From a virus: a stretch of 64,000 nt of DNA. The stretch covers positions 1 to 64,000 of the IMG/VR virus record IMGVR_UViG_3300046694_000196; one strand, given 5' to 3'. The position numbers were made by a program, and so were the translations under genes. The notes under the pieces are model-generated. The model was not told where the DNA came from, ran no database searches, and saw only the letters and a list, made by a program, of their open reading frames with translations. The number at the start of each line of letters is the position of its first letter. The stretch's first letter is position 1. Shown here piece after piece: positions 12,243 through 52,079 of this stretch.

Positions 12243-13079
12243 ATGAAATACACCGTCTATCAACTCACATCGCCGTCTAGCAAATCATACGTAGGATACA
12301 CCAAACTTAGTGCGTCCACACGATTTGACCAACACGTCAGGTCTTGGAAGAAATGGGTCAAAGAGGGCTCTCACCGGCAATGCGCGTCAAAACTTTTCTG
12401 CGCATTCAACAAGTATCCACCGCATGAATGGACAATAGAAATTCTACATGCAGTCGACAGTGATTCGCTCGTTCAAGAACTCGAGCGTGAAGAGATAGAG
12501 AGAAGGAACACAATCTCCGAGGGATACAACATGATTCCCGGCGGGCGTGGGGGCCTCGGAAAAGTCATGACCACGGAACAAAAGCAGAAAATTTCAAACA
12601 GCAGAAAGCAGTATTTCTCATCTGACGACGGTGACAAGTGGAAGAAAGAACTCTCTCAAAAATTCACAGAAGACAATCCTTGTAAGAAAGGAAACGTCCC
12701 GTGGAACAAGGGAAAGGCTGCGCCTAAGATTAGTGAGAGTCTAAAGAAATACCATGATGAAAAAATCTGGAGCGAAGAGGAGAGAGAACGCTCTCGTAAG
12801 AATGCGCATTCTCTATGGGAACGAGGAGTCTTTGATAACCGTCCTCTACCGACCGAAGAGACTAAACGAAAGATATCTGAAGCCGGAAAGGGTCGTAAGC
12901 AGACAGATTATCAGAAGCAAAGAGCGCGTGAGGCTAACAGTGGGAAAGTCTTATCAGACGAGACACGAAAAAAACTCTCAGAAAGAACTCTACAGATTTA
13001 TGTATGCCCGAAATGTGGTGTTACCGGAAAGAGCGGAGTTATGAAACGTTGGCACTTTGATAACTGTCGCTCAGTATAA
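12243..13079 (+). CDS. GIY-YIG homing endonuclease with NUMOD3 repeats and zinc finger
   Basis: A 278-residue free-standing homing endonuclease. The N-terminus has the GIY-YIG elements YTVYQLTSPSSKSYVGYTK (residues 3-21) and a conserved ..YNMIPGG.GG block near residue 96. Several NUMOD3-type DNA-binding repeats follow (for example GNVPWNKGKAAPKISESLKK and EETKRKISEAGKGRK). The C-terminus has CPKCGVTGKSGVMKRWHFDNC, a CxxC...HxxxC zinc finger. The gene is clearly more AT-rich than its neighbours, a sign of recent transfer. It lies between two terminators next to the capsid gene and is not inside a recognisable intron. Confidence 0.92.
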   Translation: MKYTVYQLTSPSSKSYVGYTKLSASTRFDQHVRSWKKWVKEGSHRQCASKLFCAFNKYPPHEWTIEILHAVDSDSLVQELEREEIERRNTISEGYNMIPGGRGGLGKVMTTEQKQKISNSRKQYFSSDDGDKWKKELSQKFTEDNPCKKGNVPWNKGKAAPKISESLKKYHDEKIWSEEERERSRKNAHSLWERGVFDNRPLPTEETKRKISEAGKGRKQTDYQKQRAREANSGKVLSDETRKKLSERTLQIYVCPKCGVTGKSGVMKRWHFDNCRSV

Positions 13080-23625: not shown

Positions 23626-24072
23626 ATGAAACCCGCACGTAACTTTGACTTCTCCCGAGAAGACGGCGTCTCCCTGGCACAAGAGCTCACTCGAGTCATG
23701 CTGTCGTGTAACGCGGCCTCGCTCGGGGCCAACTCACCCGACGAGGAAGACCCCGTCAAGGCCTTTGTCATCAAGGCCAGTCCCGTGATCGCGGCGTTCA
23801 ACCCCCGAGTAGTCGACTACCTCGGAGAAGAGCTGTACCTCGAAGAGTCCTCGGCGTTCTATCCCGGACTCATAGTCAAGGTAAAGCGTCCCGAGGGGGT
23901 CAGGCTGAGGTTCACCCAGCCGAACGGCGAGACCGTCACCAAGGAGTACCACGGCCTCACGGCCCGACTGGTACTCCATGAGATGCACCACCTCCAGGGA
24001 GAACCGTTCTACTCCCACGCGACAAAGTACCACCGAGACCAGGCGCTTCGTCGCCAGAAGAGGAAGAAATGA
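23626..24072 (+). CDS. Peptide-deformylase-like protein with altered active-site motifs
   Basis: A 148-residue protein with the deformylase layout: an N-terminal helix, motif 1 region CNAASLGANS (28-37), motif 2 region EESSAFYPGLIVKVKRP (73-89), and motif 3 HEMHHLQG (118-125). Active deformylases have GxGLAAxQ, EGCLS and HExxH. Here HExxH is kept, but the metal-binding Cys of EGCLS aligns with Ser76 and the Gln of motif 1 aligns with Ser37. The typical phage continuation (YPGLxVKVKRP) and the C-terminal end support homology. Activity is therefore doubtful or altered. The ATG at 23626 follows AGGAG; a longer upstream frame overlapping the previous gene was rejected. Confidence 0.75.
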   Translation: MKPARNFDFSREDGVSLAQELTRVMLSCNAASLGANSPDEEDPVKAFVIKASPVIAAFNPRVVDYLGEELYLEESSAFYPGLIVKVKRPEGVRLRFTQPNGETVTKEYHGLTARLVLHEMHHLQGEPFYSHATKYHRDQALRRQKRKK

Positions 24073-24632
24073 GCAAGGACATATTTCGAGACATCCGTGA
24101 GATGCACGACCACTTCGGCGTCCGCAAGGCAGTACTGAAACTCGACGTAGCCAGGCTGCGTGAGTTCCTGCGGTTCCGCGCAGACTGCGTCGCTGAAGAA
24201 GTGAGCGAGCTCGAGGCCGGCCTGAGACGTCCGGAAGAAGTCGTAGACGCGCTGATCGACATCATGGTCTTCGCGGCCGGCACCCTAGACCTCTTCGGAG
24301 TCGACGGACAGAAGGCCTGGGACGAGGTGCTCAAGGCCAACACTTCTAAAGAAGTCGGCGTCAAGGAAGGCCGACCGAACCCCTACGGTCTCCCAGACCT
24401 GGTAAAGCCCGCGGGCTGGGAAGCCCCGTCGCACGCCGACAACCACGGGTACCTGGACCGGTTCACATGTTCCAGCACCCGGGGCGCCTTCGAGAGGTGC
24501 CCGTACGGAGACGCCGGTCCACACATAGTGACGCACACCGAAGACGAGTGCAGTTACACCCGCAAGTATTCCGTCAACTGCAACAAGTGTGGACGCTCTC
24601 AGAACGGCGGCGACTGCCTTTCTCGAACTTAA
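24069..24632 (+). CDS. MazG-like nucleotide pyrophosphohydrolase with Cys-rich tail
   Basis: The first about 100 residues follow the all-alpha NTP pyrophosphohydrolase pattern: REFLRFRADCVAEEVSELEAG (metal-binding EExxE) and EEVVDALIDIMVFAAG (ExxD). The segment NPYGLPDLVKPAGW with SHADNHG is the usual end in T4-like marine phage homologues. A further about 55 residues carry Cys and His (CSSTRGAFERCPYG, CNKCGRSQNGGDC) and could bind zinc. It may adjust dNTP pools, for instance removing dCTP if cytosine is replaced; that is inference. The start overlaps the deformylase-like gene (ATGA). Confidence 0.78.
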   Translation: MSKDIFRDIREMHDHFGVRKAVLKLDVARLREFLRFRADCVAEEVSELEAGLRRPEEVVDALIDIMVFAAGTLDLFGVDGQKAWDEVLKANTSKEVGVKEGRPNPYGLPDLVKPAGWEAPSHADNHGYLDRFTCSSTRGAFERCPYGDAGPHIVTHTEDECSYTRKYSVNCNKCGRSQNGGDCLSRT

Positions 24633-29033: not shown

Positions 29034-29576
29034 ATGAAACACCAGTCACCCGCCGAGCGTGAGTCTGTGAAAGTACTGCGCGAGTGCATAGAACTCCAGA
29101 CCAAGAAGTCGAGGGACTACCAGTCTGACCGTTCTACTGTACGCCAGGCAGACTACTACCCCCGCGGCGTAGAGTCAATCTACGACATGATGAACACCAA
29201 GATGCTGCGACTCCGCAGCCTCATGGACGCGGGGGGAGACCCCAACTTCGAGTCGCTCGAGGACACCGCTCGCGACCTAGTGAACTACACCAGCTTCTTC
29301 GCGGCCTACATACGCGGCGGCGTAGACGGACAGAGCGTAGACCGGGACATGTACAACCGGCCACTTCCCGTCGACGATACTCCCAAGATGTCATTCGAAG
29401 AATTCGCGTCGTACGGGTCTTCCAATCCCGGCGGTAGTGATCCCGTTCCCACCTGTACTGACGAGCCCTCACTTGGGTTTCGCCGCGTGTCCTACGAAGG
29501 TACGACCTCTATCTGGACCGACCCGAACGGGCTCCCGTTCTCTTTCCGTGACGGCAAGGTGACTTACCTTGACTGA
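29034..29576 (+). CDS. DUF1599-like (nucleotide-modification-associated) protein, 180 aa
   Basis: Residues about 20-90 (KKSRDYQSD, YYPRGVESIYDMMNTKMLRL and DTARDLVNYTSFFAAYI) match the pattern of the short DUF1599 / Nmad1 domain found in phage proteins near DNA- or nucleotide-modification genes. The C-terminal half is Pro/Ser-rich with a small beta domain (FRRVSYEGTTSIW). It is immediately upstream of the dCMP hydroxymethylase gene and shares its promoter, so a role in modified-nucleotide metabolism is likely but unproven. Confidence 0.62.
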   Translation: MKHQSPAERESVKVLRECIELQTKKSRDYQSDRSTVRQADYYPRGVESIYDMMNTKMLRLRSLMDAGGDPNFESLEDTARDLVNYTSFFAAYIRGGVDGQSVDRDMYNRPLPVDDTPKMSFEEFASYGSSNPGGSDPVPTCTDEPSLGFRRVSYEGTTSIWTDPNGLPFSFRDGKVTYLD

Positions 29577-29583
29577 GGTGAAC

Positions 29584-30273
29584 ATGAAAGTGCGTGACAT
29601 CCGACTCCTGTTCGCCGGCATGCTGGCCCGCGGCGAGTTCGTGACCGGCCGGGGAGACCAGCAGATGCTGGAAGTGCTCGGTGTCAGTTTCATCGCCGAC
29701 GAGGCTTCTGTCTTCGGCAAGGTCAACGAAGAGTACGTCGACCGAGAGATCGCGTGGTACGAGAGCGAGTCGACCAACGTGAACGACATCGGCCCCGACG
29801 TGCCGGCTGCGTGGAAAGCGACCGCGAACGAGCACGGCGAGGTCAACTCCAACTACGGGCACTTGATATTCTCAGAAAAGTATCACTCCCAGTTCCGCCG
29901 CGTGATAGAAGAGCTGGGTGAGAACCCCGAGAGCCGCCGCGCTATCATGGTCTACACTCGCCCTTCGATCTGGGTGGAGTACGACGAGAACGGCAAGAAC
30001 GACTTCATCTGCACCAACGCGGTCCAGTACCTAGTCAGAAACGACAGGGTGCACGCGGTCGTGCAGATGCGTTCTAACGACCTCGTGTACGGCTACAAGA
30101 ACGACCGTTACTGGCAGAGGTACGTGCTCGAGACAGTGGCGTTCAAGCTGGGTCTGCACGTCGGCGAGATACACTGGCAGGTCGGCAGCCTCCACGTCTA
30201 CCCTCGGCACTTCCGCCTCGTGCAGCAGTACAGGGAGTCTGACCAGTACGCACAGGACTTGACTCTTGCCTGA
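29584..30273 (+). CDS. 42: dCMP hydroxymethylase (T4 gp42-type, thymidylate synthase family)
   Basis: A 229-residue protein very similar to T4 gp42, which converts dCMP to 5-hydroxymethyl-dCMP with methylene-tetrahydrofolate. Shared blocks are SFIADEASVFGKVNEEYVDR, GEVNSNYG, ESRRAIMVYTRPS, NDFICTNAVQYLV and QMRSNDLVYGYKND. Catalytic Cys143 corresponds to T4 Cys148. Asp174 in YKND corresponds to T4 Asp179, the residue that selects dCMP; thymidylate synthases have Asn there. The ATG at 29584 follows GAGG and aligns with the conserved start; a TTG at 29569 is possible. Its presence predicts hydroxymethylcytosine in phage DNA. Confidence 0.9.
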   Translation: MKVRDIRLLFAGMLARGEFVTGRGDQQMLEVLGVSFIADEASVFGKVNEEYVDREIAWYESESTNVNDIGPDVPAAWKATANEHGEVNSNYGHLIFSEKYHSQFRRVIEELGENPESRRAIMVYTRPSIWVEYDENGKNDFICTNAVQYLVRNDRVHAVVQMRSNDLVYGYKNDRYWQRYVLETVAFKLGLHVGEIHWQVGSLHVYPRHFRLVQQYRESDQYAQDLTLA

Positions 30274-30523
30274 AGTGTACAAGATGGGATCGGCCCCTCC
30301 AGGCGCAGTGTACGTCGGCCGAGGGTCTCCCTACGGGAACCCCTTCGTGCTAGGACGTGACGGCGACCGAGACGCAGTCTGTGACCGCTTCGAAGCAGAA
30401 GTGCTGCCGGCCCTAGACGTGTCTCCCCTGAGAGGAAAGGACCTGGTGTGTCACTGTGTTCCTAAGCGGTGCCACGCCAGTTCTATCTTGAGAAAAGCTA
30501 ACTACGAGGAATTTTGGTCATGA
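30266..30523 (+). CDS. DUF4326 family protein, 85 aa
   Basis: The sequence follows the DUF4326 pattern: YVGRGSPYGNPFVLG (residues 16-30) and LVCHCVPKRCHASSILR near the C-terminus, with three conserved Cys and two His. The function of the family is unknown; it is common in phages. The TTG start overlaps the hydroxymethylase stop by 8 bases, placing it in the nucleotide-modification operon. Confidence 0.85.
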   Translation: MPEVYKMGSAPPGAVYVGRGSPYGNPFVLGRDGDRDAVCDRFEAEVLPALDVSPLRGKDLVCHCVPKRCHASSILRKANYEEFWS

Positions 30524-30732
30524 GTCACTACGACGTCAATACCGGTTACTACCTGTTCAAGCTCATCGAGGCCCTGAAGGCCGATCCGCTCTCGGCGTTC
30601 CACATCGATGAGCTGTTTCAAGGGTCGAACGCCTCACTCGAGGGCTGGTACGAAGAGTACAAGAAATCCGACGAGATGACGCGGATGTGGAGCGAGGCCG
30701 TGGTAACGTCATCAACGGATTGGTACGGCTGA
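30520..30732 (+). CDS. Hypothetical protein, 70 aa
   Basis: The ATG at 30520 overlaps the upstream stop (ATGA) and follows AGGA. The product (MSHYDVNTGYYLFKLIEALK) is acidic and helical with a Trp-rich C-terminus. Unknown. Confidence 0.65.
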   Translation: MSHYDVNTGYYLFKLIEALKADPLSAFHIDELFQGSNASLEGWYEEYKKSDEMTRMWSEAVVTSSTDWYG

Positions 30733-30890
30733 TGTCTTGGGTCTTACTCACAGTCAATCCCCTTGAACTGGTCGCTATCGTCTTCCTCGCCCTCTTGCTG
30801 GCAGCGTACGTGCTCTTGGTGACCATCCGAGTGATCACCGCCAAGGTGTCCGCGCTGGTCACTCGAGTCAAGGGCTACTTCCGTGACTGA
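30732..30890 (+). CDS. Single-pass membrane protein, 52 aa
   Basis: The ATG overlaps the previous stop (TGATG). Residues about 2-30 are hydrophobic (MSWVLLTVNPLELVAIVFLA and on), followed by a basic cytoplasmic tail (VTRVKGYFRD). Unknown function. Confidence 0.65.
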   Translation: MSWVLLTVNPLELVAIVFLALLLAAYVLLVTIRVITAKVSALVTRVKGYFRD

Positions 30891-31155
30891 GCGCGTCACT
30901 GCCGCAGCGTGCCGCCACCCCGACGGGGGAGTGTATTCCCTGGCACCCCCAGCCCGTCACGGACAGGTCCTCCGCCTAGTCGAGTCGTGTTACCCCGAAG
31001 ACAGGGAAGCAGTCTTCAAGGTAGAACAGGGCTTCGTCACTAGCGGTAACAGGTTCGTGACCCGCACAGAAGCACGGAAGATCGCAGACCACGCGGGTCA
31101 GTCTTCTGATCGCGACATGCACCTCCCAGAACTCTTCAGCGAGGACCTCTGGTGA
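30883..31155 (+). CDS. Conserved phage-type hypothetical protein, 90 aa
   Basis: A GTG start overlapping the preceding gene by 8 bases. It contains VEQGFVTSGNRFVTRTEARK and IADHAGQ, a pattern I recognise from many short phage proteins of unknown function. One His/Cys-containing N-terminal segment (AAACRHPDGGVYSL) may bind a metal. Confidence 0.7.
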   Translation: MTERVTAAACRHPDGGVYSLAPPARHGQVLRLVESCYPEDREAVFKVEQGFVTSGNRFVTRTEARKIADHAGQSSDRDMHLPELFSEDLW

Positions 31156-31601
31156 ACATAGGGTCCAAGTCAGGCTACCCGTCTTCGTCACTGTCTAACT
31201 TCGCGCCTCACAGGTTCGTCATCGACGGCGTAGAGTGCGCGTCACTCGAGGGCTGGCTGCAGTCCCTCAAGTTCGACAAGGAACACGTGCAGGTAGAAGT
31301 CTGCAAGCTGGTCGGTCTCGAGGCCAAGTACCGCGGCAAGAAGCGAAACGGCTCCTGGCAGCGCGTCCAGACGCTGTGGTGGAAGGGCGTCGCCTACGAC
31401 CGTCACTCGACCGCCTACCAGAAGCTCCTAGACCGAGCCTACTATGCCGCGTTCGAGCAGTGTGACTCTTTCCGTCGCGCGCTCGCTGCTACGGGTGACA
31501 GCGTGCTGACCCACTCCATAGGACACAACGACTCTTCGAAGACGGTGCTCACCGAGCGTGAGTTCTGTCGCCGCCTGACGAAACTGCGGGAGCTGACGTG
31601 A
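31152..31601 (+). CDS. NADAR/YbiA-like protein, 149 aa
   Basis: The N-terminus SSLSNFAPHRFVIDGVECAS followed by LEGWLQSLKF matches the LSNF...(V/L)E...Q..KF pattern of NADAR-domain proteins. These include the YbiA N-glycosidase and enzymes that remove ADP-ribose from guanine in DarT-type systems. The C-terminal part (HSIGHNDSSKTVLTEREF) is compatible. The second half diverges from typical family members, so the function is tentative. A phage copy could reverse host ADP-ribosylation of DNA, or act on nucleotides. Confidence 0.55.
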   Translation: MNIGSKSGYPSSSLSNFAPHRFVIDGVECASLEGWLQSLKFDKEHVQVEVCKLVGLEAKYRGKKRNGSWQRVQTLWWKGVAYDRHSTAYQKLLDRAYYAAFEQCDSFRRALAATGDSVLTHSIGHNDSSKTVLTEREFCRRLTKLRELT

Positions 31602-31729
31602 ACAAGAAACCCACCGTACCAGGGAAACTCAATCGCTGCCCGGCGTGCAAGTCTACGGGGAGCCTGTCTAAGCAGACGTGCCCCTCCTCCTCTTGCATAC
31701 TCAGACTCAAGGACAAGCTACGTGTGTAA
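31598..31729 (+). CDS. Small zinc-ribbon protein, 43 aa
   Basis: A GTG start overlapping the previous stop (GTGA). CPAC (residues 14-17) and CPSSSC (28-33) form a four-cysteine zinc-ribbon-like motif; the ends are basic. It overlaps the dCMP deaminase start by 8 bases. Probably nucleic-acid- or protein-binding. Confidence 0.6.
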   Translation: MNKKPTVPGKLNRCPACKSTGSLSKQTCPSSSCILRLKDKLRV

Positions 31730-32273
31730 GTACTGTGAAGACGAAGAACACTTCAAGTTCGACATCGCCCGAGTGTCTTCGAATTACGACTCGTTCGTGA
31801 TCCGGGACCCCGCCGCGGATCACGCAGAGCGAGACAAGAAATGGCACGCCCGCTACCTGGACCTGGCCGAGCACGTCTCTTCGTGGTCACTCGACCCGTC
31901 TACGAAAGTCGGCGCGGTAGCGTTCCGTGACGGCCAGGTGCTGTCGCTGTCATACAACGGCTTCCCCCGCGGCATCCGAGACAGCGAAGAGCGCCTGAAC
32001 GACCGCGAGACGAAGTACGGAATGATCGTGCACGCCGAGATGAACGTCATCTACAACGCGTCACTGACCGGAGTATCACTCAAGGGGGCGACGCTGTACG
32101 TGTCGGGGCTCCCTGTGTGCTCGACTTGTACGCTCGGAGTCATCCAGGCCGGCATCTCTCGCGTGGTCATCCGTTCGCGAGACATAAATAGGTCCGAGAA
32201 ATGGAGAGCGTCCTGGGACAAGAGCAGCGAGCTGCTCAGAGAAGCGGGCGTAGCGGTAGTCGTAGTTGACTAG
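31722..32273 (+). CDS. cd: Deoxycytidylate (dCMP) deaminase
   Basis: The 183-residue zinc enzyme deaminates dCMP to dUMP for thymidylate supply. The HAE motif (IVHAEMNVIYNAS) and PVCSTC are the zinc-binding and catalytic elements; STKVGAVAFRDGQVLSLSYN is the family N-terminal block. A short Cys-containing N-terminal extension is present. Together with the dCMP hydroxymethylase it divides the dCMP pool between dUMP and hydroxymethyl-dCMP. The start is GTG. Confidence 0.93.
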   Translation: MCKYCEDEEHFKFDIARVSSNYDSFVIRDPAADHAERDKKWHARYLDLAEHVSSWSLDPSTKVGAVAFRDGQVLSLSYNGFPRGIRDSEERLNDRETKYGMIVHAEMNVIYNASLTGVSLKGATLYVSGLPVCSTCTLGVIQAGISRVVIRSRDINRSEKWRASWDKSSELLREAGVAVVVVD

Positions 32274-32293
32274 TCTCGGTTTCATGATAGTAT
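32266..32293 (+). promoter_or_regulatory. Early-type promoter for the sugar-transfer genes
   Basis: TTGACT (32266-32271), 16-base spacer and TAGTAT (32288-32293), overlapping the end of the deaminase gene and 25 bases before the glycosyltransferase-like start. Confidence 0.6.
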
Positions 32294-32317
32294 GCAACAT
32301 CATCGAGGACACTTGAA

Positions 32318-33430
32318 GTGACTACAAAGAAACTTTTGTTGACTGGTATGAACAAAAACCAGTGCGTGCGGAATTTCTTCCTGAAGCAGGAACTGAACGT
32401 CGTCCCGTCTTCCTACGCCCTCATAAGGGCCTTCGAGGACATGGGCTACGAGGTAGACCAGAGGCCGGTGACCCTCGGGGAAGACCTGTCCCACTACGAC
32501 GAGGTCGTAATCTACATCCACAGCCCGAAGGCCTTCTGTCAGTTCCTCTGGTCAGGTCTCTACGCCGTGCACGCCCGCCCGGACGCGATCTTCGCGTTCG
32601 ATGACTGGCAGGTCAAGCAGATCATGTACTCGATCAAGTCGTACAACGACTACCTGATCGAAGAGGACTACGTCAAGGCCTACAAGGACTACTACTTCGA
32701 CCTGTGGCAGGGCAGGGAGTCTCGAGAAGAGGTCGCCCTCTACTCGGCCCAGTACCGCGAGGCCTGCGAGCGCATCCTCCGCAAGGAGAACAGGCTGCTG
32801 ATCTCGGCCTTCGCGGGCGGAAACGTCGACGCACTCAACCTGGACTGGAAGGGGAACGTGTTCACGTTCAACCCGAACCCGTACCACCTGAACCGCACCC
32901 CCGAGAACAACTTCGGCGTCGAGAAAGTCAAGACGTTCGACGACTTCTTCGGCGGAGACGAAGAGGCGGTCAAGAAGCATGAGTGGAACTTCGCGTCGCT
33001 TGTCCAGAAGAAGACCCGCGCGTGGGTAGACAAGCAGGGAGTGAAGTCCTGGCCCATCAACTACTACGGCTCCAAGAGGAACGAGGAGAAGTGCGAGCGC
33101 CTGACAGAAGACCAGATGTGCCGCAAGTTCTCCACCCAGTGGGGCATCCTCTATCCGGGATACGGCAAGATGTGTGAGTCGGGCTGGTGGCGGGCGCGCC
33201 CTCTCCAGGTCGCGGACGCCGGCTCTATCCTGGTCGGTGAGAAACCCGAGCTTATGATCTACTACAGGGACGCGTCCCTCATCCAGAGCGCCTCCACCGT
33301 AGAGGGACTCACCGACGCGCAGCTAGAGAAGCTCGCGAGGTGGCAGCGCGAGGCCCTGTATGCGAACCACCCCCTCGACAAGTCGGTCACTCGGCGAGAA
33401 CTGGAGGCAGTCCTCGATGCACCCAGATAA
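32318..33430 (+). CDS. Glycosyltransferase-like protein, candidate DNA hmC transferase
   Basis: A 370-residue protein with GT-B-like layout. The N-terminal NVVPSSYALIRAFEDMGYEV and the following HYDEVVIYIHSPKAF resemble the start of T4 beta-glucosyltransferase (a VPSS segment, then Y-D-x-L-I-V-V). The C-terminal half (GILYPGYGKMCESGWWRARP then a DAGSILVG turn) resembles the sugar-nucleotide half of GT-B enzymes. It is directly followed by the UDP-galactopyranose mutase, whose start it overlaps by 14 bases. I infer transfer of a UDP-sugar to hydroxymethylcytosine, but the fold call is from pattern only. Confidence 0.6.
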   Translation: MTTKKLLLTGMNKNQCVRNFFLKQELNVVPSSYALIRAFEDMGYEVDQRPVTLGEDLSHYDEVVIYIHSPKAFCQFLWSGLYAVHARPDAIFAFDDWQVKQIMYSIKSYNDYLIEEDYVKAYKDYYFDLWQGRESREEVALYSAQYREACERILRKENRLLISAFAGGNVDALNLDWKGNVFTFNPNPYHLNRTPENNFGVEKVKTFDDFFGGDEEAVKKHEWNFASLVQKKTRAWVDKQGVKSWPINYYGSKRNEEKCERLTEDQMCRKFSTQWGILYPGYGKMCESGWWRARPLQVADAGSILVGEKPELMIYYRDASLIQSASTVEGLTDAQLEKLARWQREALYANHPLDKSVTRRELEAVLDAPR

Positions 33431-34481
33431 GAACAGACGCATACTCGTGATCGGCGCTGGCTTCTCAGGAGCAGTCATCGCCCGTGAGCTAGCAGAGTTC
33501 GGGTGGGACGTGTACGTCATGGACAAGCGAGACCACGTTGCGGGCAACGCCTATGACTACGAGCACAACCTTGGGCCACGCGTACACAAGTACGGCCCGC
33601 ACCTTTTCCACACCAACAACGAGCGAGTCTGGGACTACCTCCAGCGCTTCGGCGACTGGGTCCCGTACAGGCACAGAGTGAAGGCCATGCTCAAGGACGG
33701 GCGCTTCGTGACGCTACCCGTCAACCGAGAGACCAAGGAGGTCGTGGGTGAAGAGAACGTGCTCGACGTGTTCTACAGGCCATACACACGAAAGATGTGG
33801 GGCGTGGAGCTTGACGAACTTGATCCTTCCGTTGCGAAGCGAGTGCCAGTCCGCGACGACGACAACGAGTTCTACTTCCCTGACGACGCATTCCAGGCGC
33901 TGCCGCGAGAAGGGTACACTCAACTGGTCAGGAATATCCTGGACCACGAGAACATCACTGTGGGACTAGGACGGAAATTCTTCAAAGGGTTGGAACAGTA
34001 CTACTTTCACGTCTTCAATTCTATGCCGATCGACGAGTACTATGACTTCTGTTTCGGCGAGCTCCCGTACAGGTCCATCAAGTTCAGTACCCGCTTCGTC
34101 TCTCACCCGAACTTCTTTGACGACCTCCCCGCCGCCACCGTGAACTTCACTGGAGACGGCCCGTTCACGCGAGTCACGTGCTGGAACAAGCTCCCGAACT
34201 CACCGCCGGCAGAGCACGACGTCTGGACGTACGAGCAGCCATGTGACTACCGCGACAACGACATGGAGCGGTACTACCCGGTGAAGGACCGAGACGGCAA
34301 GAACCGCGCCACGTACGAGCAGTACAAGGCGATCCCGAACGAGAAGACTACTTTCATCGGCAGGACCGGGCTCTACGCCTACCTCGACATGCACCAGGCA
34401 GTCAACATAGCACTACAGACCGCGAAGAAGTTCAATGACGCGCACAGCAGCGATATTCACGACCAGGGCGTTCAGCTCTGA
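33417..34481 (+). CDS. glf: UDP-galactopyranose mutase
   Basis: A 354-residue flavoprotein that interconverts UDP-galactopyranose and UDP-galactofuranose. The FAD-binding GAGFSGAVIARELAEFGWDV (13-32) and KRDHVAGNAYDY are typical, followed by the family signature VHKYGPHLFHTNNERVWDYL (56-75) and YTRKMWGVELDEL. The C-terminal GRTGLYAYLDMHQAVNIAL is the conserved flavin-contact region. Bacterial homologues are about 370-390 aa, so this is complete. GGAGG precedes the ATG. Lying between two glycosyltransferases in a phage early operon, it probably supplies a furanose sugar donor. Confidence 0.95.
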   Translation: MHPDKNRRILVIGAGFSGAVIARELAEFGWDVYVMDKRDHVAGNAYDYEHNLGPRVHKYGPHLFHTNNERVWDYLQRFGDWVPYRHRVKAMLKDGRFVTLPVNRETKEVVGEENVLDVFYRPYTRKMWGVELDELDPSVAKRVPVRDDDNEFYFPDDAFQALPREGYTQLVRNILDHENITVGLGRKFFKGLEQYYFHVFNSMPIDEYYDFCFGELPYRSIKFSTRFVSHPNFFDDLPAATVNFTGDGPFTRVTCWNKLPNSPPAEHDVWTYEQPCDYRDNDMERYYPVKDRDGKNRATYEQYKAIPNEKTTFIGRTGLYAYLDMHQAVNIALQTAKKFNDAHSSDIHDQGVQL

Positions 34482-35523
34482 CTTCACTTCCCTCTACGAG
34501 TCCATGCACTTCCTGAGGGAGTACGACAGGATAGTGTTCTACCACGCCTACGGCACCGACAAGGTGGTCGAGGCAGTCGAGAGACTCGGCCGCGTCGTCG
34601 TCTCTGAGGTAGTGCACACCAAGTCCTGGTTCGACCGGTGCGTATCCGGCGACTTTCCTACCTGGAGGCATTTCTATGAAGCTTTCGACCCTCACGTCCC
34701 GGAACGCGGGATTGATGACGTCTACCTCTTTGGCGCGCCTCTCTCAGACGGCGGAAAGCTCAAGAGGAAGCACAACGGTCTACAGAAGAACCTTGACAAC
34801 AACAAGTTCATCACCTTCGTCAGCGTCGCTAAGCATTACTTCACCGCTTACGCGGCTGTCAAGCTCGCTAACGTCACCGGAGCCGCTTTCCACGAGGTGT
34901 GCTATGACCCTGGAGAGAACTCTGTGGGGCAGCTCGTTGACGTCATACGACCGGTCTCTGTTCGCGTTTACCACGGCTACGACATAGCGCGCTTCGGCAT
35001 AGAGAAGCACCGTTTCTTCCAGGACGGCATGGCCCAGTCGCGGTCTTCTCCCTTCGATGACGACGATGAAGTCGACCACGACGTGGTCTTCGGCTACAGC
35101 TACATGACCAGGGACCGCCGAGCCTCCCACGAGTACGCTCAAGACGTCATCTCGGTCGTGCGGTCACTCCCGGGAGTCAGGTCTCGCTTCCTGGTGAAGA
35201 ACAAGGTCGAGGGCTACGACACGTCTGTGAGTCGTGAGGAGTACATGCGACTCATCCGCAAGTCACGGTTCACGTTCGTGGCGCCGGCGTACGAGCCAGG
35301 CGTCTTCTCGCCGTTCAGGTACATCGAGGCCGTCTTGTCGGGCTGCCTCCCCCTCGTCTTCGAGACCTGCGCATACAGAGAGTTCTTTGACTCGTGGGGC
35401 GTCCCCGTGGACTCCGTGCACGCGACGATAGTCAACCGTGGCAGCGTAGCGGCTGCACTAGAGATGGACGAGATGGACCGGCGGGCGCTGGTGGAGTACC
35501 TCCGCGCCAAGTTTCTCGCGTAG
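34435..35523 (+). CDS. GT-B-like glycosyltransferase, 362 aa
   Basis: The C-terminal half has the donor-binding layout of GT-B enzymes: RKSRFTFVAPAYEPGVFSPF followed by RYIEAVLSGCLPLVF, the E..P.R..EA...G..P pattern. The N-terminal half is alpha/beta with RIVFYHAYGTDKVVEAV. It overlaps the mutase gene by 47 bases. The acceptor could be hydroxymethylcytosine, a sugar already on it, or a virion or host glycan. No close family is recognised. Confidence 0.68.
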   Translation: MTRTAAIFTTRAFSSDFTSLYESMHFLREYDRIVFYHAYGTDKVVEAVERLGRVVVSEVVHTKSWFDRCVSGDFPTWRHFYEAFDPHVPERGIDDVYLFGAPLSDGGKLKRKHNGLQKNLDNNKFITFVSVAKHYFTAYAAVKLANVTGAAFHEVCYDPGENSVGQLVDVIRPVSVRVYHGYDIARFGIEKHRFFQDGMAQSRSSPFDDDDEVDHDVVFGYSYMTRDRRASHEYAQDVISVVRSLPGVRSRFLVKNKVEGYDTSVSREEYMRLIRKSRFTFVAPAYEPGVFSPFRYIEAVLSGCLPLVFETCAYREFFDSWGVPVDSVHATIVNRGSVAAALEMDEMDRRALVEYLRAKFLA

Positions 35524-35573: not shown

Positions 35574-36758
35574 ATGAACGCAATGACTTGGTCCTCTATC
35601 GTCCCCCTCATCGGCGGCGAGACCATAGCCATGGAGAGGGTCTTCGGCAACCGCCCAGAAGAACTGCTCTCCTACTCCCCATTCGCTTCTAACGACGCGC
35701 ACATCGTGAACCACTACGACGGCGAGGTCCCCTACCGCCTGATCGACAAGGAAGAGTTCACCCCCCGCCGCGTAGACGTAGTCAACTCGGTCTGCCCCTG
35801 CGCAGGGCTCTCGTCTCTGTCTCCCACTTCCGCTGCGGACTCTAAGGTCAACGAGTGGATGTTCGAGTCGTCGAAATACGTCTTCGAGAACGTCAAGCCG
35901 ACCGTGCTCTGGGGAGAGAACGCCCCCCACTTCGCTACGAACAAGGGCACGCTGATCCGAGAACGGCTGCGAGACATGGCACTCGACCACGGGTACTCCA
36001 TGAGCGTCATGAAGACGAAGTCACTCGTGCACGGCCTGCCCCAGATCAGGACCAGGAGCTTCTACTTCTTCTGGCGAGGCATGGACGCGCCGCTCTTTGA
36101 CTACTACCACCGGCCGCACGTCAAGATAGAAGACCTCATCCGGGGAGTCAAGTCAAACTCCCAGAGAGAAGTCATCGGCCGGGGAAAACCGTCTGACAAC
36201 AAGTACCTCGAGTTCATCCTCGAGCACGTCCGCAGGCAGACTTTCCAGGAGTTCTATGACTCCCTGCAGAAGTCTGAGAGCGTCATCACGATCATCGAGC
36301 AAGAGTCCGACTGGGTCTCGTGCGCTGAGTGGATGGAGTCCAAGGGGTACGACCGCGAGGCCAAGTCGTCACGACGCCGCCAGGCCAAGCTCGACGACAA
36401 CAAGGGCTACATGAAGAAAGACCTGCTGTTCGCGAAGGACTACATCGGCGCGTTCGTCGGGCACCTCCCTCACTCCATCAGGCACCCCGACGAAGACCGC
36501 TTCATCGACTACCGCGAGGCCATGACCATCATGGGGCTCCCCGACGACTTCGAGCTGCTCGACCCGAAGCACAGCTCCAACCACATATGCCAGAACGTCC
36601 CGGTGCAGACCGCGACCGACATGGCCACGGAGGTCCGAGAAGTACTCCTCGGCAACAGGAGGTCCTCGGGGCACAGGTACGTGCTGCAGGACAACGTTCA
36701 CCAGAAAGTAGAAGAGACCCTCTTCCCCTCGAAGACACTCGTAGACTTCGCTGTCTGA
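35574..36758 (+). CDS. C5-cytosine DNA methyltransferase family protein
   Basis: A 394-residue protein with the motif order of C5 methyltransferases: a motif I-like VPLIGGETIAMERVFG (10-25), motif IV SVCPCAGLSSLSP (Pro75-Cys76), motif VI WGENAPHFATNKG (Glu115-Asn116), motif VIII QIRTRSF (Gln157, Arg159, Arg161) and motif X NVPVQTATDMATEV near 345. Motif I lacks the usual FxGxGG, and PCQ is PCA, so activity is not certain. It has its own late promoter. If the phage already replaces cytosine with a modified base, its target is puzzling. Confidence 0.78.
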   Translation: MNAMTWSSIVPLIGGETIAMERVFGNRPEELLSYSPFASNDAHIVNHYDGEVPYRLIDKEEFTPRRVDVVNSVCPCAGLSSLSPTSAADSKVNEWMFESSKYVFENVKPTVLWGENAPHFATNKGTLIRERLRDMALDHGYSMSVMKTKSLVHGLPQIRTRSFYFFWRGMDAPLFDYYHRPHVKIEDLIRGVKSNSQREVIGRGKPSDNKYLEFILEHVRRQTFQEFYDSLQKSESVITIIEQESDWVSCAEWMESKGYDREAKSSRRRQAKLDDNKGYMKKDLLFAKDYIGAFVGHLPHSIRHPDEDRFIDYREAMTIMGLPDDFELLDPKHSSNHICQNVPVQTATDMATEVREVLLGNRRSSGHRYVLQDNVHQKVEETLFPSKTLVDFAV

Positions 36759-37304: not shown

Positions 37305-38288
37305 TTGCAATTCAACATTGAAATCGAGAAACTGAGAGAGTGCAAGCTCTTCGTGGCAGTGCCGATGTACGGCGGGATGTGCCACGGTAACTTCACTCGC
37401 TCCATCATGGACCTCACCGCGCTCTGTGCCCGCTACAGTGTCCACATGCGCACGTACTTCCTCTTCAACGAGTCCCTGATCAGCCGCGCGCGCGCGTACT
37501 GTGCCGACGAGTTCCTCCGCTCTGACTGCACCCACATGCTCTTCATCGACGCCGACATCACGTTCAACGCGAACGACGTCATCGCGATGATAGCGGTCCA
37601 GCTCATGGACCCCGAGAACAAGGACATCGTCGCGGCGGCTTACCCCAAGAAGTGCATCACCTGGGAGAAGATCAAGCTGGCAGTCGACAAGGGCTTCGCT
37701 GACGAGGACCCCAACAGGCTCGAGGACTTCGTGGGTGACTTCGTGTTCAACCCGGTGTCCGGCACTTCCATCCTGCTAAGTGAGCCCGCCGAGGTCGCCG
37801 AGGCCGGCACCGGCTTCATGCTCATCCCGCGCAACACGTTCGACCGCTTTAACGTGGCGTACCCCGAGTTCCGGTACCTGCCAGACCACGCGCGCAGCGA
37901 CAACTTCGACGGCACCCGCGAGATCACCATGTTCTTCGACTGCGTCATCGACAAGGACCGCAAGGAGTCTGAGTTCGAGGCGATGATGGACGACATCCTG
38001 GCACTAGAAGTAGGTTCTCCTGACGACGAGCTCGACGTCGAGAAACTGCAGGCCAAGGTCAAGGACATCCGTCTCCGTGAGAAGAACAGCTCGAAGAGGT
38101 ACCTGTCGGAGGACTACTACTTCTGCCAGAACGTCCGCAGGGCCGGCATGAAGGTGTGGATCTGTCCGTGGATCGAGCTGCAGCACAGCGGTTTCTACAC
38201 GTTCGGGGGCAAGCTCGCCGCGCTCGCCGCGATCGGCGCCTCCGCCACAGTCGACAAAGACGCACTAAAGAAGAGAGCCAAGGCATGA
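37305..38288 (+). CDS. GT-A-type glycosyltransferase, 327 aa
   Basis: The N-terminal KLFVAVPMYGGMCHGNFTRS and HMLFIDADITFNANDVIAM, with a DxD motif at Asp82-Asp84, mark a GT-A nucleotide-sugar transferase. Homologous proteins with this start are frequent in T4-like cyanophages. A charged region (about 215-265) interrupts the domain before YLSEDYYFCQNVRRAGMKVW, the typical acceptor-side motif. The TTG start follows AAGGA. Its place before the clamp gene and near the hydroxymethylation genes suggests sugar transfer to DNA or to a virion protein. Confidence 0.82.
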   Translation: MQFNIEIEKLRECKLFVAVPMYGGMCHGNFTRSIMDLTALCARYSVHMRTYFLFNESLISRARAYCADEFLRSDCTHMLFIDADITFNANDVIAMIAVQLMDPENKDIVAAAYPKKCITWEKIKLAVDKGFADEDPNRLEDFVGDFVFNPVSGTSILLSEPAEVAEAGTGFMLIPRNTFDRFNVAYPEFRYLPDHARSDNFDGTREITMFFDCVIDKDRKESEFEAMMDDILALEVGSPDDELDVEKLQAKVKDIRLREKNSSKRYLSEDYYFCQNVRRAGMKVWICPWIELQHSGFYTFGGKLAALAAIGASATVDKDALKKRAKA

Positions 38289-48135: not shown

Positions 48136-48450
48136 TCACTGCGGCGGGCCCGGGTCTTCACTCGGGCCGTCGTCTTTCCCGAAGTCGTACGACCTCTTGA
48201 CGTTCTCGATCTCTTCGCGACCCTTCTGCCAAGACACCGCGCCCAAGATGGCGCCGATCGCCAGGTAGAACGTGCCTGAGCCGTCCATCGTGAGCGGCAC
48301 CCACGGCGCTATAGCTATCCCCGCCTTGATCATCCCCAGTACTATGCTGGGAGCGACCACGAAGTCGAACAGGATGATCACCACGAACGCCCAGGCTATC
48401 GCCGCGCGCCAGTGCTTCACGAATGCGTTCTCTATGTCTCTCTTCTTCAT
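48136..48450 (-). CDS. Holin, 3-TM gene-transfer-agent type
   Basis: A 104-residue protein matching the three-transmembrane holin family (GTA holin): FVKHWRAAIAWAFVVIILFD, PSIVLGMIKAGIAIAPWVPL, then GSGTFYLAIGAILGAVSWQK. Holins make holes in the inner membrane to release endolysin at lysis time. It is the only leftward gene in this replication block, 8 kb from the endolysin. A GATAAATA motif lies four bases before its ATG and no ribosome-binding site is visible, so the late message may be leaderless. Confidence 0.78.
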   Translation of the reverse strand: MKKRDIENAFVKHWRAAIAWAFVVIILFDFVVAPSIVLGMIKAGIAIAPWVPLTMDGSGTFYLAIGAILGAVSWQKGREEIENVKRSYDFGKDDGPSEDPGPPQ

Positions 48451-48454
48451 AGGA

Positions 48455-48462
48455 TATTTATC
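48455..48462 (-). promoter_or_regulatory. GATAAATA late-promoter variant, leftward, at the holin start
   Basis: The last base of the motif is only 4 bases from the holin ATG. By T4 geometry transcription would start at or within the ATG. Confidence 0.5.
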
Positions 48463-48468
48463 GACTTG

Positions 48469-49956
48469 ATGGAATTTTACACTCACGCTGCCCAGTGGGG
48501 CGGCAAGGTGCGGGTCCGCGGCTGGAAGAACGGCCGCAGGTTCCAGGACTCGATCCCGTACAGGCCCTACCTCTTCACTCGCTCGAAGACGAACGAGCCG
48601 ACGGGTTACGTGACTCTCCGGGACCAGCCAGTCGACCGAGTCCAGTTCGACTCGATCTATGACGCCAAGGAGTTCGTGGAGCGGTACAGAGACGTTCACA
48701 ACTTCGAGGTGTACGGCTCAACTAACTGGCCGTACGCCTACCTCTACGACGTCTACGGCCGCGGCATGGAGTACGATGCCAAGCAGGTCTCGGTCGTCAA
48801 CGTCGACATCGAGGTCGGCGCCGACGAGTTCCCCGACCCGTGGAAGGCCGACTGGCCGATCACGGCAATCACCCTCGAGAAGAACAAGAAGTACGTCTCT
48901 TTCGGCCTGATGCCCTACGTCCCCGCGGACCCCGAAGACGTCTACGTCATGTGCGAGTCCGAGGAGGACATGCTCGAGCGGTTCATCACGGCGTGGCTCA
49001 ACTTCGACCCCGACGTGGTCACGGGATGGAACATCGACTACTTCGACGTGCCCTACCTCGTCAACCGCATCAGGAAGCTCCTGGGTGACGACTACGCTTG
49101 CATGCTGTCTCCCTGGAAGAAGATCAAGGAGAGCACCGTCTTCTACCACGGCTCCAACAAGACGCTTTACGACCTGGTGGGGGTCACCTCCCTGGACTAC
49201 CTCCCCCTCTACAAGAAGTTCTCGTTCTCTAACGAGGAGTCCTACCGCCTCGACAACATCGCGTTCGTGACAATCGGCGAGAAGAAGCTGGACTACTCAG
49301 AGTACGAGTCGCTCAACGACCTCTACAAGAACAACTTCCAGCTGTTCATGGAGTACAACCGTCGCGACGTCGCGCTGGTGTCTAGAATGAACGACAAGCT
49401 CGGGTTCATCGAGCAGGTCTTCGCGATGGCCTACGACACGCTGGTCAACTTCTCAGACACGTTCACGACCGTGAAGTTCTGGGAGATCATCTGCCACAAC
49501 TACCTGCTCGACCAGGGAGTAGTCTCGCCCCAGAAGAAGCACTCCATCAAGGAGAAGCAGATCGCGGGCGGGCACGTCAAGGAGCCTATCACGGGTCGGC
49601 ACGAGTGGGTGGCCTCTTTCGACCTCGACAGCCTCTACCCCCACCTCATCATGCAGTACAACATCAGCCCCGAGACGCTGGTGGACCGCCTGGACGAGCT
49701 CCCGTCTGAAGAAAGCTCAGTGGACCGGATACTCAACGGGTTCATGAACGAGGAGCGACTCGCGCAGCTGCGGGAGGCAGACCTCTCCTTGACGGCCGGA
49801 GGCGCCCTGTACTCGCGAGCGAAGCGGGGCTTCGCGGCGGCCCTCATGGACAAGTTCTACGAGGACCGAAAGAAGTTCAAGGGGATGATGAACGAAGAGA
49901 AGAAGAACCTCGAGGCCATAGAGGCCGAGATGAAGAGACGAGGACTGGCGCTGTGA
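48469..49956 (+). CDS. 43A: DNA polymerase gp43, N-terminal half (43A)
   Basis: The 495-residue product carries the exonuclease domain and the first polymerase motif of a family B enzyme. Exo I VNVDIEVG (Asp113, Glu115; T4 Asp112, Glu114), Exo II VVTGWNIDYFD near 190, Exo III EYNRRDVALV near 300, and polymerase motif A SFDLDSLYPHLI (Asp385) are present. It stops in the fingers region after a helix rich in Lys and Glu, before motif B. The missing part is encoded at 50979-52079. The ATG at 48469 (MEFYTHAAQW) matches the T4-like start; the ribosome-binding site is weak. Confidence 0.93.
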   Translation: MEFYTHAAQWGGKVRVRGWKNGRRFQDSIPYRPYLFTRSKTNEPTGYVTLRDQPVDRVQFDSIYDAKEFVERYRDVHNFEVYGSTNWPYAYLYDVYGRGMEYDAKQVSVVNVDIEVGADEFPDPWKADWPITAITLEKNKKYVSFGLMPYVPADPEDVYVMCESEEDMLERFITAWLNFDPDVVTGWNIDYFDVPYLVNRIRKLLGDDYACMLSPWKKIKESTVFYHGSNKTLYDLVGVTSLDYLPLYKKFSFSNEESYRLDNIAFVTIGEKKLDYSEYESLNDLYKNNFQLFMEYNRRDVALVSRMNDKLGFIEQVFAMAYDTLVNFSDTFTTVKFWEIICHNYLLDQGVVSPQKKHSIKEKQIAGGHVKEPITGRHEWVASFDLDSLYPHLIMQYNISPETLVDRLDELPSEESSVDRILNGFMNEERLAQLREADLSLTAGGALYSRAKRGFAAALMDKFYEDRKKFKGMMNEEKKNLEAIEAEMKRRGLAL

Positions 49957-50195
49957 TAGACGAGAGAATCCTGACGAGGTACGAGGAGATGCTGGGACAC
50001 GGCGAAGTCGCCTGCGAGCCAGAACCCGGAATTTCTCTCGCGCACCTCAGGTGGATGCTCAGAGAGATACGAGACCAGGAAGACGAACTGAAGTCTTCTC
50101 GTTGGCTCGGGTTCGTACAGGGCGTCCTCGTCATGATGGGAGTGACTACCGTCACAGAAGAGAGAAATTTCACACGGTCCTACTTCAGGAGTTAG
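49953..50195 (+). CDS. Hypothetical protein inserted between the polymerase halves, 80 aa
   Basis: A GTG start overlaps the stop of 43A (GTGA). The product (MIDERILTRYEEMLGHGEVA) is helical with a hydrophobic stretch WLGFVQGVLVMMGVTTV near residue 50. It is not a recognisable homing endonuclease. Unknown. Confidence 0.55.
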   Translation: MIDERILTRYEEMLGHGEVACEPEPGISLAHLRWMLREIRDQEDELKSSRWLGFVQGVLVMMGVTTVTEERNFTRSYFRS

Positions 50196-50197
50196 AC

Positions 50198-50758
50198 ATG
50201 AACGTACTGACAGGCAAGCAGAGAGACATATTCGTCAGCTCAGACCACCACTTCAACCACGCGAACATACTGGGCTTCACGACAGTCGGCGGCAGCAAGT
50301 TCCGGGGCGACCTCTTCGACAGCGTCGAAGAGATGAACGAGGTCATGGTAGAGCGACACAACGCGGTGGTGGGCAGCAATGATATCTGGTACTGTCTTGG
50401 CGACGTTTACTTTGGTCACCGCGATGATGCTGCTAAAATTCTACCTCGACTGAACGGGAAGAAGCGGCTCATCCTGGGTAACCACGACGACGGCAAGTGT
50501 CCCGTCTTGCAACACCACTTCGAGAAGGTCATGCTCTGGCGGTTCTTCAAGGAGTTCGACTGCCTGCTGTCGCACACTCCCCAGCACGAGTCGAACCTCT
50601 ACAAGGTGACGTTCAACGTGCACGGGCACATCCACCAGAACGAGTCACCCTCTCTGAGGCACGTGAACGCCTGCGTCGAGAAGACCGGGTACGCTCCCGT
50701 GAACCTCGAGCAGCTGATGACCGACCACAAGCTGCTCACGCAGGAGACCTTCGGTTGA
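50198..50758 (+). CDS. Metallophosphoesterase inserted between the polymerase halves
   Basis: A 186-residue calcineurin-type phosphoesterase. Motifs are SSDHHFNHANIL, YCLGDVYFG, LILGNHDD and NVHGHIHQN, giving the full set of metal ligands. This type is common in phages and its substrate is unknown. The ATG at 50198 follows AGGAG by 7 bases. It is one of three genes that separate gp43A from gp43B. A second phosphoesterase is at 57580. Confidence 0.9.
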   Translation: MNVLTGKQRDIFVSSDHHFNHANILGFTTVGGSKFRGDLFDSVEEMNEVMVERHNAVVGSNDIWYCLGDVYFGHRDDAAKILPRLNGKKRLILGNHDDGKCPVLQHHFEKVMLWRFFKEFDCLLSHTPQHESNLYKVTFNVHGHIHQNESPSLRHVNACVEKTGYAPVNLEQLMTDHKLLTQETFG

Positions 50759-50978: not shown

Positions 50979-52079
50979 ATCGATTACTCAACTCTCAGCG
51001 ATGCAGAGCTCAGGGCCCTGCGTCAAGAGACCGAAGTAAAGGTCTCCAAGTACCACAACACCCAGCAGGGCAAGAAGATCGCGCTCAACGCATTCTACGG
51101 AGCACAGAGCAACCAGTTCTTCCTGTACTACTCAGACGTCCTCGCAGAGAGCATCACTCTCTCAGGGCAGCTGTCGGTCAAGTGGATCGCCAAGAAGTTC
51201 AACGCGAAGCTCAACGGGGTCCTCAAGACCTCGGGCGTCGACTACGTGCTCATGGTCGATACAGACTCCAACTACCTGTGCCTGGACGCCCTCGTCAAGA
51301 AGGTGTTCCCCGACGGGGCCCCCAAGGAGAAGGTAGTCAACTTCATCGACAAGTTCTGCCGAGAAGTGCTGGCGCCGTTCATTCGAGAGTCCTTCGAGGA
51401 GCTCGCGACGATGATGAACGCGTTCGAGCAGCGGATGTCGATGAAGCGCGAGAACATCGCGGACGTGACGATCATCACGGGCAAGAAGAAGTACATCATG
51501 AACGTGTGGGACTCCGAGGGGGTCAGGTACGAGACGCCCAAGGTCAAGATGACCGGCATAGAGGCAGTGCGCTCCAACACCCCGTTCGTCTGCCGCGAGT
51601 ACATCAAGAAATCGATCGAGATCATCGTGAACGGCACCGAGGAACAGCTCCACGAGTACGTCGCGAAGTGCCGCGAGGCGTTCAACGGCCTCAGGTTCGA
51701 AGAGGTCGGGAAGCCGACGGGCGTCAACGGCATGAAGGACTACGCCGACAAGTACACCGTCTACCGTAAGGGCACCCCGATGCACGTGCGCGCGGCGCTG
51801 CTCTACAACAAGGTCATCAAGGAACAGAAGCTCGACAAGAAGTTCCCGCTGATCAACGACGGCGACAAGATCAAGTACACATACATGAAGGTGCCCAATC
51901 CCCTGCGCGAGAACGTCTTCGCGTGCACCACTTCTCTGCCTTCTGTCCTGAAACTAGAACAGTACATCGATTTCGATACGCAGTTCGCAAAGACCTTCCT
52001 CAGCCCGCTAGAGATCATCCTGAAGGAGATCGGGTGGCACCACGAGAAGCGTCTCTCACTAGAGGAGTTCTTCACATGA
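50979..52079 (+). CDS. 43B: DNA polymerase gp43, C-terminal half (43B), non-canonical start
   Basis: The frame from 50958 to 52079 encodes the rest of a family B polymerase: motif B GKKIALNAFYGAQSN (about 31-45), motif C MVDTDSNYL (DTDS near 94-97), the KKKYIMNVWDSEG region and a T4-like C-terminus ending KRLSLEEFFT. No ATG, GTG or TTG occurs in frame before 51246, which is inside motif C, so translation must begin at another codon. ATC at 50979 is proposed: AGGA lies 9 bases upstream and the promoter just before. A sequencing error that removed an ATG is the alternative. 43A plus 43B (about 860 aa) equals a full gp43. Confidence 0.85.
   Translation: MDYSTLSDAELRALRQETEVKVSKYHNTQQGKKIALNAFYGAQSNQFFLYYSDVLAESITLSGQLSVKWIAKKFNAKLNGVLKTSGVDYVLMVDTDSNYLCLDALVKKVFPDGAPKEKVVNFIDKFCREVLAPFIRESFEELATMMNAFEQRMSMKRENIADVTIITGKKKYIMNVWDSEGVRYETPKVKMTGIEAVRSNTPFVCREYIKKSIEIIVNGTEEQLHEYVAKCREAFNGLRFEEVGKPTGVNGMKDYADKYTVYRKGTPMHVRAALLYNKVIKEQKLDKKFPLINDGDKIKYTYMKVPNPLRENVFACTTSLPSVLKLEQYIDFDTQFAKTFLSPLEIILKEIGWHHEKRLSLEEFFT

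Follow-up and report, generated by a model that had tools for sequence, protein, structure and literature searches.

A transferase-mutase cassette in a T4-like virus

We analysed bases 1-64000 (the window) of the 126,343-base uncultivated virus record IMGVR_UViG_3300046694_000196 from IMG/VR, in which a compact run of genes combines a dCMP hydroxymethylase, a dCMP deaminase, a UDP-galactopyranose mutase (UGM) and two glycosyltransferase-like open reading frames (ORFs). Genes are referred to here by the position of their first base. ORFs resembling gp41, gp43, gp44, gp45, gp46, gp47, UvsX and a sheath protein, together with matches to a primase and sigma factor gp55 in the record, mark it as a T4-like myovirus. 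The cassette genes are all on the + strand with overlapping or nearly contiguous frames: the 32318 ORF overlaps the mutase gene by 14 bases and the mutase gene overlaps the 34435 ORF by 47 bases, the mutase start being set at 33417 because homology starts at that point. An earlier interpretation made from the letters alone (the sequence-only reading) had named these genes and their overlapping frames, and our domain and profile searches bear it out. From the evidence below, the cassette probably attaches a furanose, with galactofuranose the leading candidate, to cytosine in the DNA of the phage itself. See Table 1 for all features.

Table 1. Genes of the predicted modification cassette and its surroundings, in window coordinates
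Feature	Position	Strand	Supporting matches
MazG/PRA-PH-type nucleotide pyrophosphohydrolase, candidate dCTPase	24069..24632	+	PF01503 9.4e-8, over cut-off; phrog_671 4.9e-20
DUF1599 "nucleotide modification associated domain 1" protein	29034..29576	+	PF07659 6e-4, below cut-off
dCMP hydroxymethylase, T4 gp42 type	29569..30273	+	PF00303 8.7e-19; phrog_160 1.1e-51
dCMP deaminase	31722..32273	+	PF00383 1.2e-15; phrog_174 2.4e-40
Putative DNA glycosyltransferase, GT-B fold; proposed 5-hydroxymethylcytosine furanosyltransferase	32318..33430	+	phrog_14998 2.7e-26
UDP-galactopyranose mutase (UDP-Galp to UDP-Galf)	33417..34481	+	PF03275 5.7e-48; PDB 3gf4 1.2e-68
Second, accessory GT-B glycosyltransferase	34435..35523	+	PF03016 3.2e-5, below cut-off; weak Exostosin/GT1 matches
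C5-cytosine DNA methyltransferase homologue, conserved 3' neighbour	35574..36758	+	PF00145 5.9e-14
phrog_1574 protein, weak GT-A similarity	37305..38288	+	phrog_1574 1.9e-57; Glyco_transf_21 0.0076, below cut-off

The dCMP hydroxymethylase

The 29569 protein is 45.6% identical to T4 gp42 over 228 amino acids (E = 1.5e-76) and 22-25% identical to the 5-hydroxy-dCMP synthase of phage RB69 (ORF048). Counted from the TTG start at 29569, its Glu60, Cys148 and Asp179 share the numbering of the T4 enzyme. The sequence-only reading had called the cysteine and the dCMP-selecting aspartate Cys143 and Asp174; the residues hold, and those numbers fit an ATG start at 29584. Glu60 is catalytic in T4 gp42 and separates it from 5-hydroxy-dCMP synthase. 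This glutamate is present in all 55 gp42-type members of the thymidylate synthase (TS) family that we compared (the window's own and those of 54 other loci); position 60 is Phe in RB69 and Providencia phage PSTRCR_121 and Val in phage DSL-LC01. The cysteine and aspartate occur in 57 of 57 TS proteins of related loci. In the td controls, which are the ordinary thymidylate synthases that these phages encode, Asn takes the place of the Asp seen in the dCMP-type enzymes. An Asn/Asp switch in TS homologues has been tied by MetaGPA to modified contigs (PMC8670742), and PMC13390438 describes RB69 ORF048 as a 5-hydroxy-dCMP synthase. Because of the gp42-like identity, Glu60 and the dCMP-selecting Asp179, the acceptor in this phage is predicted from sequence to be 5-hydroxymethylcytosine (5hmC) and not 5-hydroxycytosine. 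The RB69-type 5-hydroxycytosine route was rejected for this phage on the low identity to ORF048 and the retained Glu60. The dCMP deaminase gene keeps its position between the TS and transferase genes in relatives.

The mutase and the two glycosyltransferases

The mutase scored 163.7 bits against PF03275 (curated cut-off 26.3), and its best PDB match is the K. pneumoniae enzyme 3gf4. Klebsiella residues Arg174, Arg280, Arg343, Tyr349, Asp351 and Trp160 correspond to Arg142, Arg252, Arg316, Tyr322, Asp324 and Trp128 of the phage protein, and the GxGxxG motif that binds flavin adenine dinucleotide (FAD) is intact, as the sequence-only reading had stated for the FAD and family motifs. These active-site columns are invariant across 33 phage mutases. 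The middle domain is ~30 residues shorter than in the bacterial enzyme. Mutases of Rhizobium and Agrobacterium phages are 30-33% identical and lie outside such a cassette in both phages checked.

No Pfam model matched the 32318 protein. Its AlphaFold2 model, built from a 60-sequence alignment, has a pLDDT of 94.3 and a pTM of 0.91 and shows a GT-B fold with two Rossmann-like domains. A Foldseek search of 350,542 PDB chains placed the T4 alpha-glucosyltransferase-DNA complex 1y6f second (E = 2.9e-5) and 1y6g eleventh, the remaining top matches being mostly GT-B enzymes; the TM-scores of 0.40-0.49 indicate a fold in common and not family membership. The sequence-only reading had pointed to T4 beta-glucosyltransferase (BGT) and known arabinosyltransferases for comparison. 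The T4 alpha-glucosyltransferase (AGT) is what emerged; hhalign aligned BGT over 59 N-terminal columns only, a weak match at a probability of 17%, and RB69 ORF003c gave none. A candidate relationship of 32318 to ORF003c or AGT by descent was dropped, as the profiles show no relation. No relatives of 32318 were found in a scan of bacterial genomes.

The 34435 model (pLDDT 80.7) also has structure matches to GT-B enzymes, so that both ORFs that the sequence-only reading took for transferases look the part, with different standing: the conserved transferase of the cassette is 32318, not 34435. Homologues of 34435 occur in seven other loci, once between the transferase and mutase genes (locus L065), and we regard it as accessory because it is limited to this handful of loci. 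It may add a second sugar. Its Vibrio homologues lie near tail-fibre genes, amid unannotated ORFs. In phages of the DSL-LC01 type (L005:8001-11146 and L121-L130), the mutase is flanked by two paralogous transferases of the 32318 family, and this pairing therefore suggests a disaccharide there.

The pair recurs with one of two hydroxylating enzymes

A 32318-type transferase adjoins a mutase in dozens of IMG/VR contigs, in Phage C48C1, Erwinia phage FBB1 and DSL-LC01, and in Aeromonas phages, with the gene order reversed in the Aeromonas and Erwinia phages. Repetition of this arrangement across so many phages excludes chance adjacency. An IMG/VR scan with the mutase recovered the transferase in 69 of 80 loci, at a distance of <=150 nt from the mutase in 68 of the 69. 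Where at least 4 kb of upstream sequence was available, 38 of 39 mutase-scan loci carried a gp42-type TS gene and none a TET gene; in a scan with the C48C1 transferase, TET was found in 15 of 15 loci and TS in none. Neither accompanied any of the 11 mutases without a detected transferase, of which two lie where a contig ends. Clustering at 90% left 52 distinct transferases, 27 with TS, 8 with TET and none with both. Within the clade that contains 32318, the mutase is nearly always adjacent, in either order and in TS and TET contexts alike.

The same division is seen in whole records. Seventeen of 20 whole records bearing the transferase have TS-family genes, at least one per record being of the type with the dCMP-selecting Asp. 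The three without TS, namely C48C1 and the records that contain L102 and L110, are exactly the three with Tet_JBP (PF12851) above cut-off. We consider this complementarity the strongest evidence that the transferase would act on a hydroxylated pyrimidine in DNA. Furthermore, AGT (PF11440) and BGT (PF09198) are absent from all 19 transferase-bearing records tested, with the T4 positive control matching, and the TET-associated glycosyltransferase TAGT (PF20691) was found in none of 16 records tested. Aeromonas phage 25 has gp42, gp56, gp1, the mutase and the transferase all present, with AGT and BGT absent. The claim of the sequence-only reading that a mutase supplies a furanose for hydroxymethylcytosine in phage DNA is thus supported by a pair that travels with TS or TET and never with both; that reading had missed the recurrence in other phages.

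In C48C1, a Tet_JBP dioxygenase gene (PF12851, 3.3e-17) lies upstream and overlaps. Tet_JBP genes also stand upstream of the pair at L002:7580-8998 and L100-L118. The record of our phage has no match to Tet_JBP, and TET-based hydroxymethylation was rejected for it on this ground. The Tet_JBP enzymes of the other phages might oxidise thymine, in a base J-like manner, rather than 5-methylcytosine.

Which sugar

In several relatives an extended short-chain dehydrogenase/reductase (SDR) gene lies downstream of the hydroxylating gene and upstream of the transferase, in operons of the order TS, dCMP deaminase, SDR, transferase and mutase, or TET, SDR, transferase and mutase; in other relatives a divergent SDR directly follows the mutase. 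The galE model (TIGR01179) was the top NCBIfam model for 9 of 9 SDRs tested (5e-69 to 1e-19), scoring far above UDP-xylose synthase models. Two upstream SDRs best match solved UDP-glucose 4-epimerases (8e-53 and 1e-39), and the downstream type is less clear. The sequence-only reading had left the choice between galactofuranose and arabinofuranose; we favour galactofuranose because GalE-like epimerases in the same operons would feed the mutase.

In Providencia phage PSTRCR_121, a 32318-family protein (hhalign E = 2e-32) is encoded between an SIS isomerase and a nucleoside triphosphate (NTP) transferase; a U32 protein and a TS of the RB69 type (80% to RB69) are encoded nearby. A second cytosine-glycosylation module is thereby linked to the 32318 family, which may, on this evidence, prefer furanose donors. 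RB69-type modules (L010:26492-27661 and L007:9354-10514) likewise hold a U32 family protein (PF01136). RlhA, the enzyme for 5-hydroxycytidine in rRNA, belongs to the U32 family, and the phage protein may be relevant to the formation of 5-hydroxycytosine.

Proposed pathway and its alternatives

In the pathway that we propose, the gp42-type enzyme would make hydroxymethyl-dCMP, to be incorporated at replication as in T4. UDP-glucose would be converted to UDP-galactose by GalE, the host's here and phage-encoded in many relatives, and the mutase would turn UDP-galactose into UDP-galactofuranose. The 32318 GT-B enzyme would then move galactofuranose onto the hydroxymethyl group of 5hmC in DNA, replacing the T4 alpha- and beta-glucosyltransferases, and 34435 would perhaps add a second sugar. 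The modification would probably serve to protect the DNA against restriction enzymes and CRISPR nucleases.

Several observations weigh against this pathway. We computed gene identities, catalytic residues, fold, linkage and the TS/TET complementarity, and from these we infer every reaction, the sugar and DNA as the acceptor. The loci were gathered by similarity search, hence are not independent, and the TET context forms a single clade in the transferase tree, which points to one origin. TIGR00031 is by far the best NCBIfam model for the mutase, yet the score of 274.4 bits falls under the equivalog cut-off of 303.75; this shortfall of 29 bits is consistent with the shortened middle domain. The phage SDRs are all under the galE cut-off, and no epimerase was found in the record of this phage, so that host UDP-galactose would be used. 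The profile comparison of 32318 with T4 AGT and RB69 ORF003c gave no signal. A blastp search found no homologue of T4 gp56 in the record, which may be incomplete, and T4 gp1 kinase is absent from this record and from those of four uncultured relatives, also perhaps incomplete; gp1 is present in Aeromonas phage 25 and Erwinia FBB1. The C5-methyltransferase homologue beside the cassette (35574) is hard to explain, since the enzyme would be expected to lack a substrate in fully hydroxymethyl-substituted DNA. Lastly, the TET-bearing whole records (n = 3) have no PF00145 methyltransferase, and therefore the acceptor there may be 5-hydroxymethyluracil (5hmU).

We consider it unlikely that the route is as proposed with arabinofuranose as the sugar, the mutase acting on UDP-arabinopyranose and the transferase placing arabinofuranose on hydroxymethylcytosine. 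Bacterial mutases can also use UDP-arabinopyranose. Moreover, RB69-type cytosine carries arabinose (PMC13390438), and PSTRCR_121 has a 32318-family transferase in such a module; however, the RB69-type module is without a mutase, and the relatives of our cassette encode GalE-like epimerases and not pentose-nucleotide enzymes, with UDP-xylose synthase models far below galE. Rather less probable is a virion or host-surface glycan built by the mutase and transferases, with the base-modification genes as bystanders. Mutases of the same subfamily without this transferase can indeed join such clusters: that of L053 sits with GT8, GT25 (a lipopolysaccharide-type enzyme), an epimerase and methyltransferases, which we used as a surface-glycan control and which indicates roles for the mutase gene in pathways of two types, and the mutase of Rhizobium phage P10VF is far from any nucleotide gene. 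Gene context, by which we checked this alternative of the sequence-only reading, points the other way wherever the 32318-type transferase is present, to TS (38/39) or TET (15/15) and not to glycan clusters, against 0/11 for mutases with no transferase detected; the TS/TET complementarity and the absence of AGT and BGT in whole records would also be unexpected for a surface glycan.

An acceptor other than 5hmC, either 5-hydroxycytosine as in RB69 or 5hmU as in base J, seems very unlikely in this phage. A 32318-family member does accompany an RB69-type 5-hydroxy-dCMP synthase, and JBP-like thymine oxidation is possible in the TET-type records, which lack a C5 methyltransferase; the 29569 enzyme, however, sides with T4 gp42 in identity and keeps the Glu60 that is Phe in RB69, and no TET gene accompanies it. 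Least likely of all, in our view, is the transfer of an ordinary pyranose (glucose or galactose) to hydroxymethylcytosine by 32318, with the mutase serving another purpose. The resemblance of the 32318 fold to T4 AGT would fit this, as would the 32318-family loci in which the transferase occurs with a C5 methyltransferase and no mutase is nearby (L133-L139); the near-constant adjacency of the mutase within 32318's own clade, whatever the gene order or hydroxylating enzyme, argues against it.

Comparison with known systems

The proposed furanosylation of 5hmC most resembles T4 glucosyl-5hmC in its starting point: both are T4-like phages with a TS-type dCMP hydroxymethylase carrying Glu60, Cys148 and Asp179, and T4 uses a GT-B transferase on hydroxymethylcytosine DNA, as proposed for 32318. 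T4 differs in having AGT/BGT, gp1 and gp56, none of which was found in this record, and its transferases are unrelated to the 32318 family by sequence; unlike in T4, a mutase, often with GalE, would supply a furanose donor in the cassette phages. The arabinosyl-5-hydroxycytosine system, known from Mosigvirus and phage NP (PMC6024577, PMC13390438), likewise relies on a phage module that puts an alternative sugar on cytosine, and its Providencia version holds a 32318-family transferase. That module, however, comprises a 5-hydroxy-dCMP synthase, an arabinose-5-phosphate isomerase, an NTP transferase and a U32 protein with no mutase, and its ORF003c is not detectably related to 32318. Shewanella phage Thanatos carries deoxypentosyl-cytosine, for which the proposed sugar-nucleotide enzyme is a UDP-xylose pyrophosphorylase (PMC12838424); it shares a pentose-type cytosine sugar and a dCMP-modifying TS homologue, and no mutase is described. 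As for phage TET/5hmC pathways, C48C1 and its IMG/VR relatives join Tet_JBP to the same transferase-mutase pair; the TET/TAGT systems use a GT-A transferase, whereas 32318 is GT-B and this phage has no TET. Bacterial Glf (K. pneumoniae 3gf4) shares the FAD motif and active-site residues, but the phage mutase is missing those middle-domain residues and lies beside DNA-modification genes, not in a cell-surface locus.

Glycosylation of DNA cytosine is known chemistry; the variation proposed here lies in the transferase family and in the route to a furanose donor. No paper linking phage hydroxymethylcytosine to a mutase was found in the literature searched, with subscription papers outside it and priority therefore uncertain, and nothing relevant was found there on galactofuranose or galactosyl modification of DNA. 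The sequence-only reading knew of no such system; no description has surfaced, although the arrangement is not unique to this phage and recurs widely. More tentatively, at slightly less than an even chance, the phrog_14998 family as a whole may consist of DNA furanosyltransferases that combine with various base-activating enzymes: gp42 (5hmC), TET/JBP (5hmC/5hmU) or an RB69-type synthase (5-hydroxycytosine). Donors would come from GalE and mutase (galactofuranose) or from arabinose-5-phosphate (arabinofuranose), and the product would be galactofuranosylated DNA that in some phages bears a further sugar.

If the proposal is true, galactofuranose, known from bacterial and fungal surfaces, would join DNA chemistry, and phages would be seen to exchange the modules that supply the sugar donor (host UDP-glucose; arabinose; GalE plus mutase) while the hydroxylated cytosine that receives it stays the same. 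The large "unknown function" family phrog_14998 would be named as DNA glycosyltransferases. Defences adapted to glucosylated DNA may fail against DNA so modified, and the enzymes are possible 5hmC-labelling tools. The pair is present in existing isolates (Aeromonas phage 25, phiAS4 and Erwinia FBB1), and 44RR2.8t, in which gp42 and gp56 are present and the pair is missing from the corresponding position, offers a natural comparison.

Neighbouring genes and other observations

The sequence-only reading had missed the 35574 methyltransferase homologue. Its catalytic Pro-Cys, Glu and RxR are shared by all 64 homologues compared. Homologues beside the hydroxymethylcytosine cassette (the window's own and those of L016, L023, L035, L047 and others) have an unusual CPCAGLS motif IV and a GENAP motif VI. 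The cytosine carboxymethyltransferase CmoX is defined by an SPPC motif IV and Arg350 (PMC12783734); a CmoX-like identity was ruled out, as motif IV here reads VCPC instead of SPPC.

The DUF1599 gene adjoins the TS gene in ~40 loci, and family members at L080 and L093 score over the cut-off that the window's copy misses. The 24069 pyrophosphohydrolase is inferred to be part of the pathway though it lies outside the cassette. The phrog_1574 gene is a conserved neighbour, present in 35 loci; its membership of the pathway is uncertain. Between the TS and dCMP deaminase genes are a small DUF4326-like ORF, judged by eye (30266-30523), and a gp30.3 family protein (31152-31601; PF08010 1.1e-57, weak NADAR similarity), the latter seen in only two other loci, both of which are the same contig. 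Mutases ~60% identical to the one studied here occur in other settings (L053, L056-L059, L088, L090 and L096).

Elsewhere in the window, DNA polymerase gp43 is apparently split into ORFs at 48412-49956 and 51246-52079, with a metallophosphoesterase-like ORF (50051-50758) between them. A GIY-YIG-like (homing endonuclease-like) ORF lies at 12243-13079, directly after the apparent major capsid gene.

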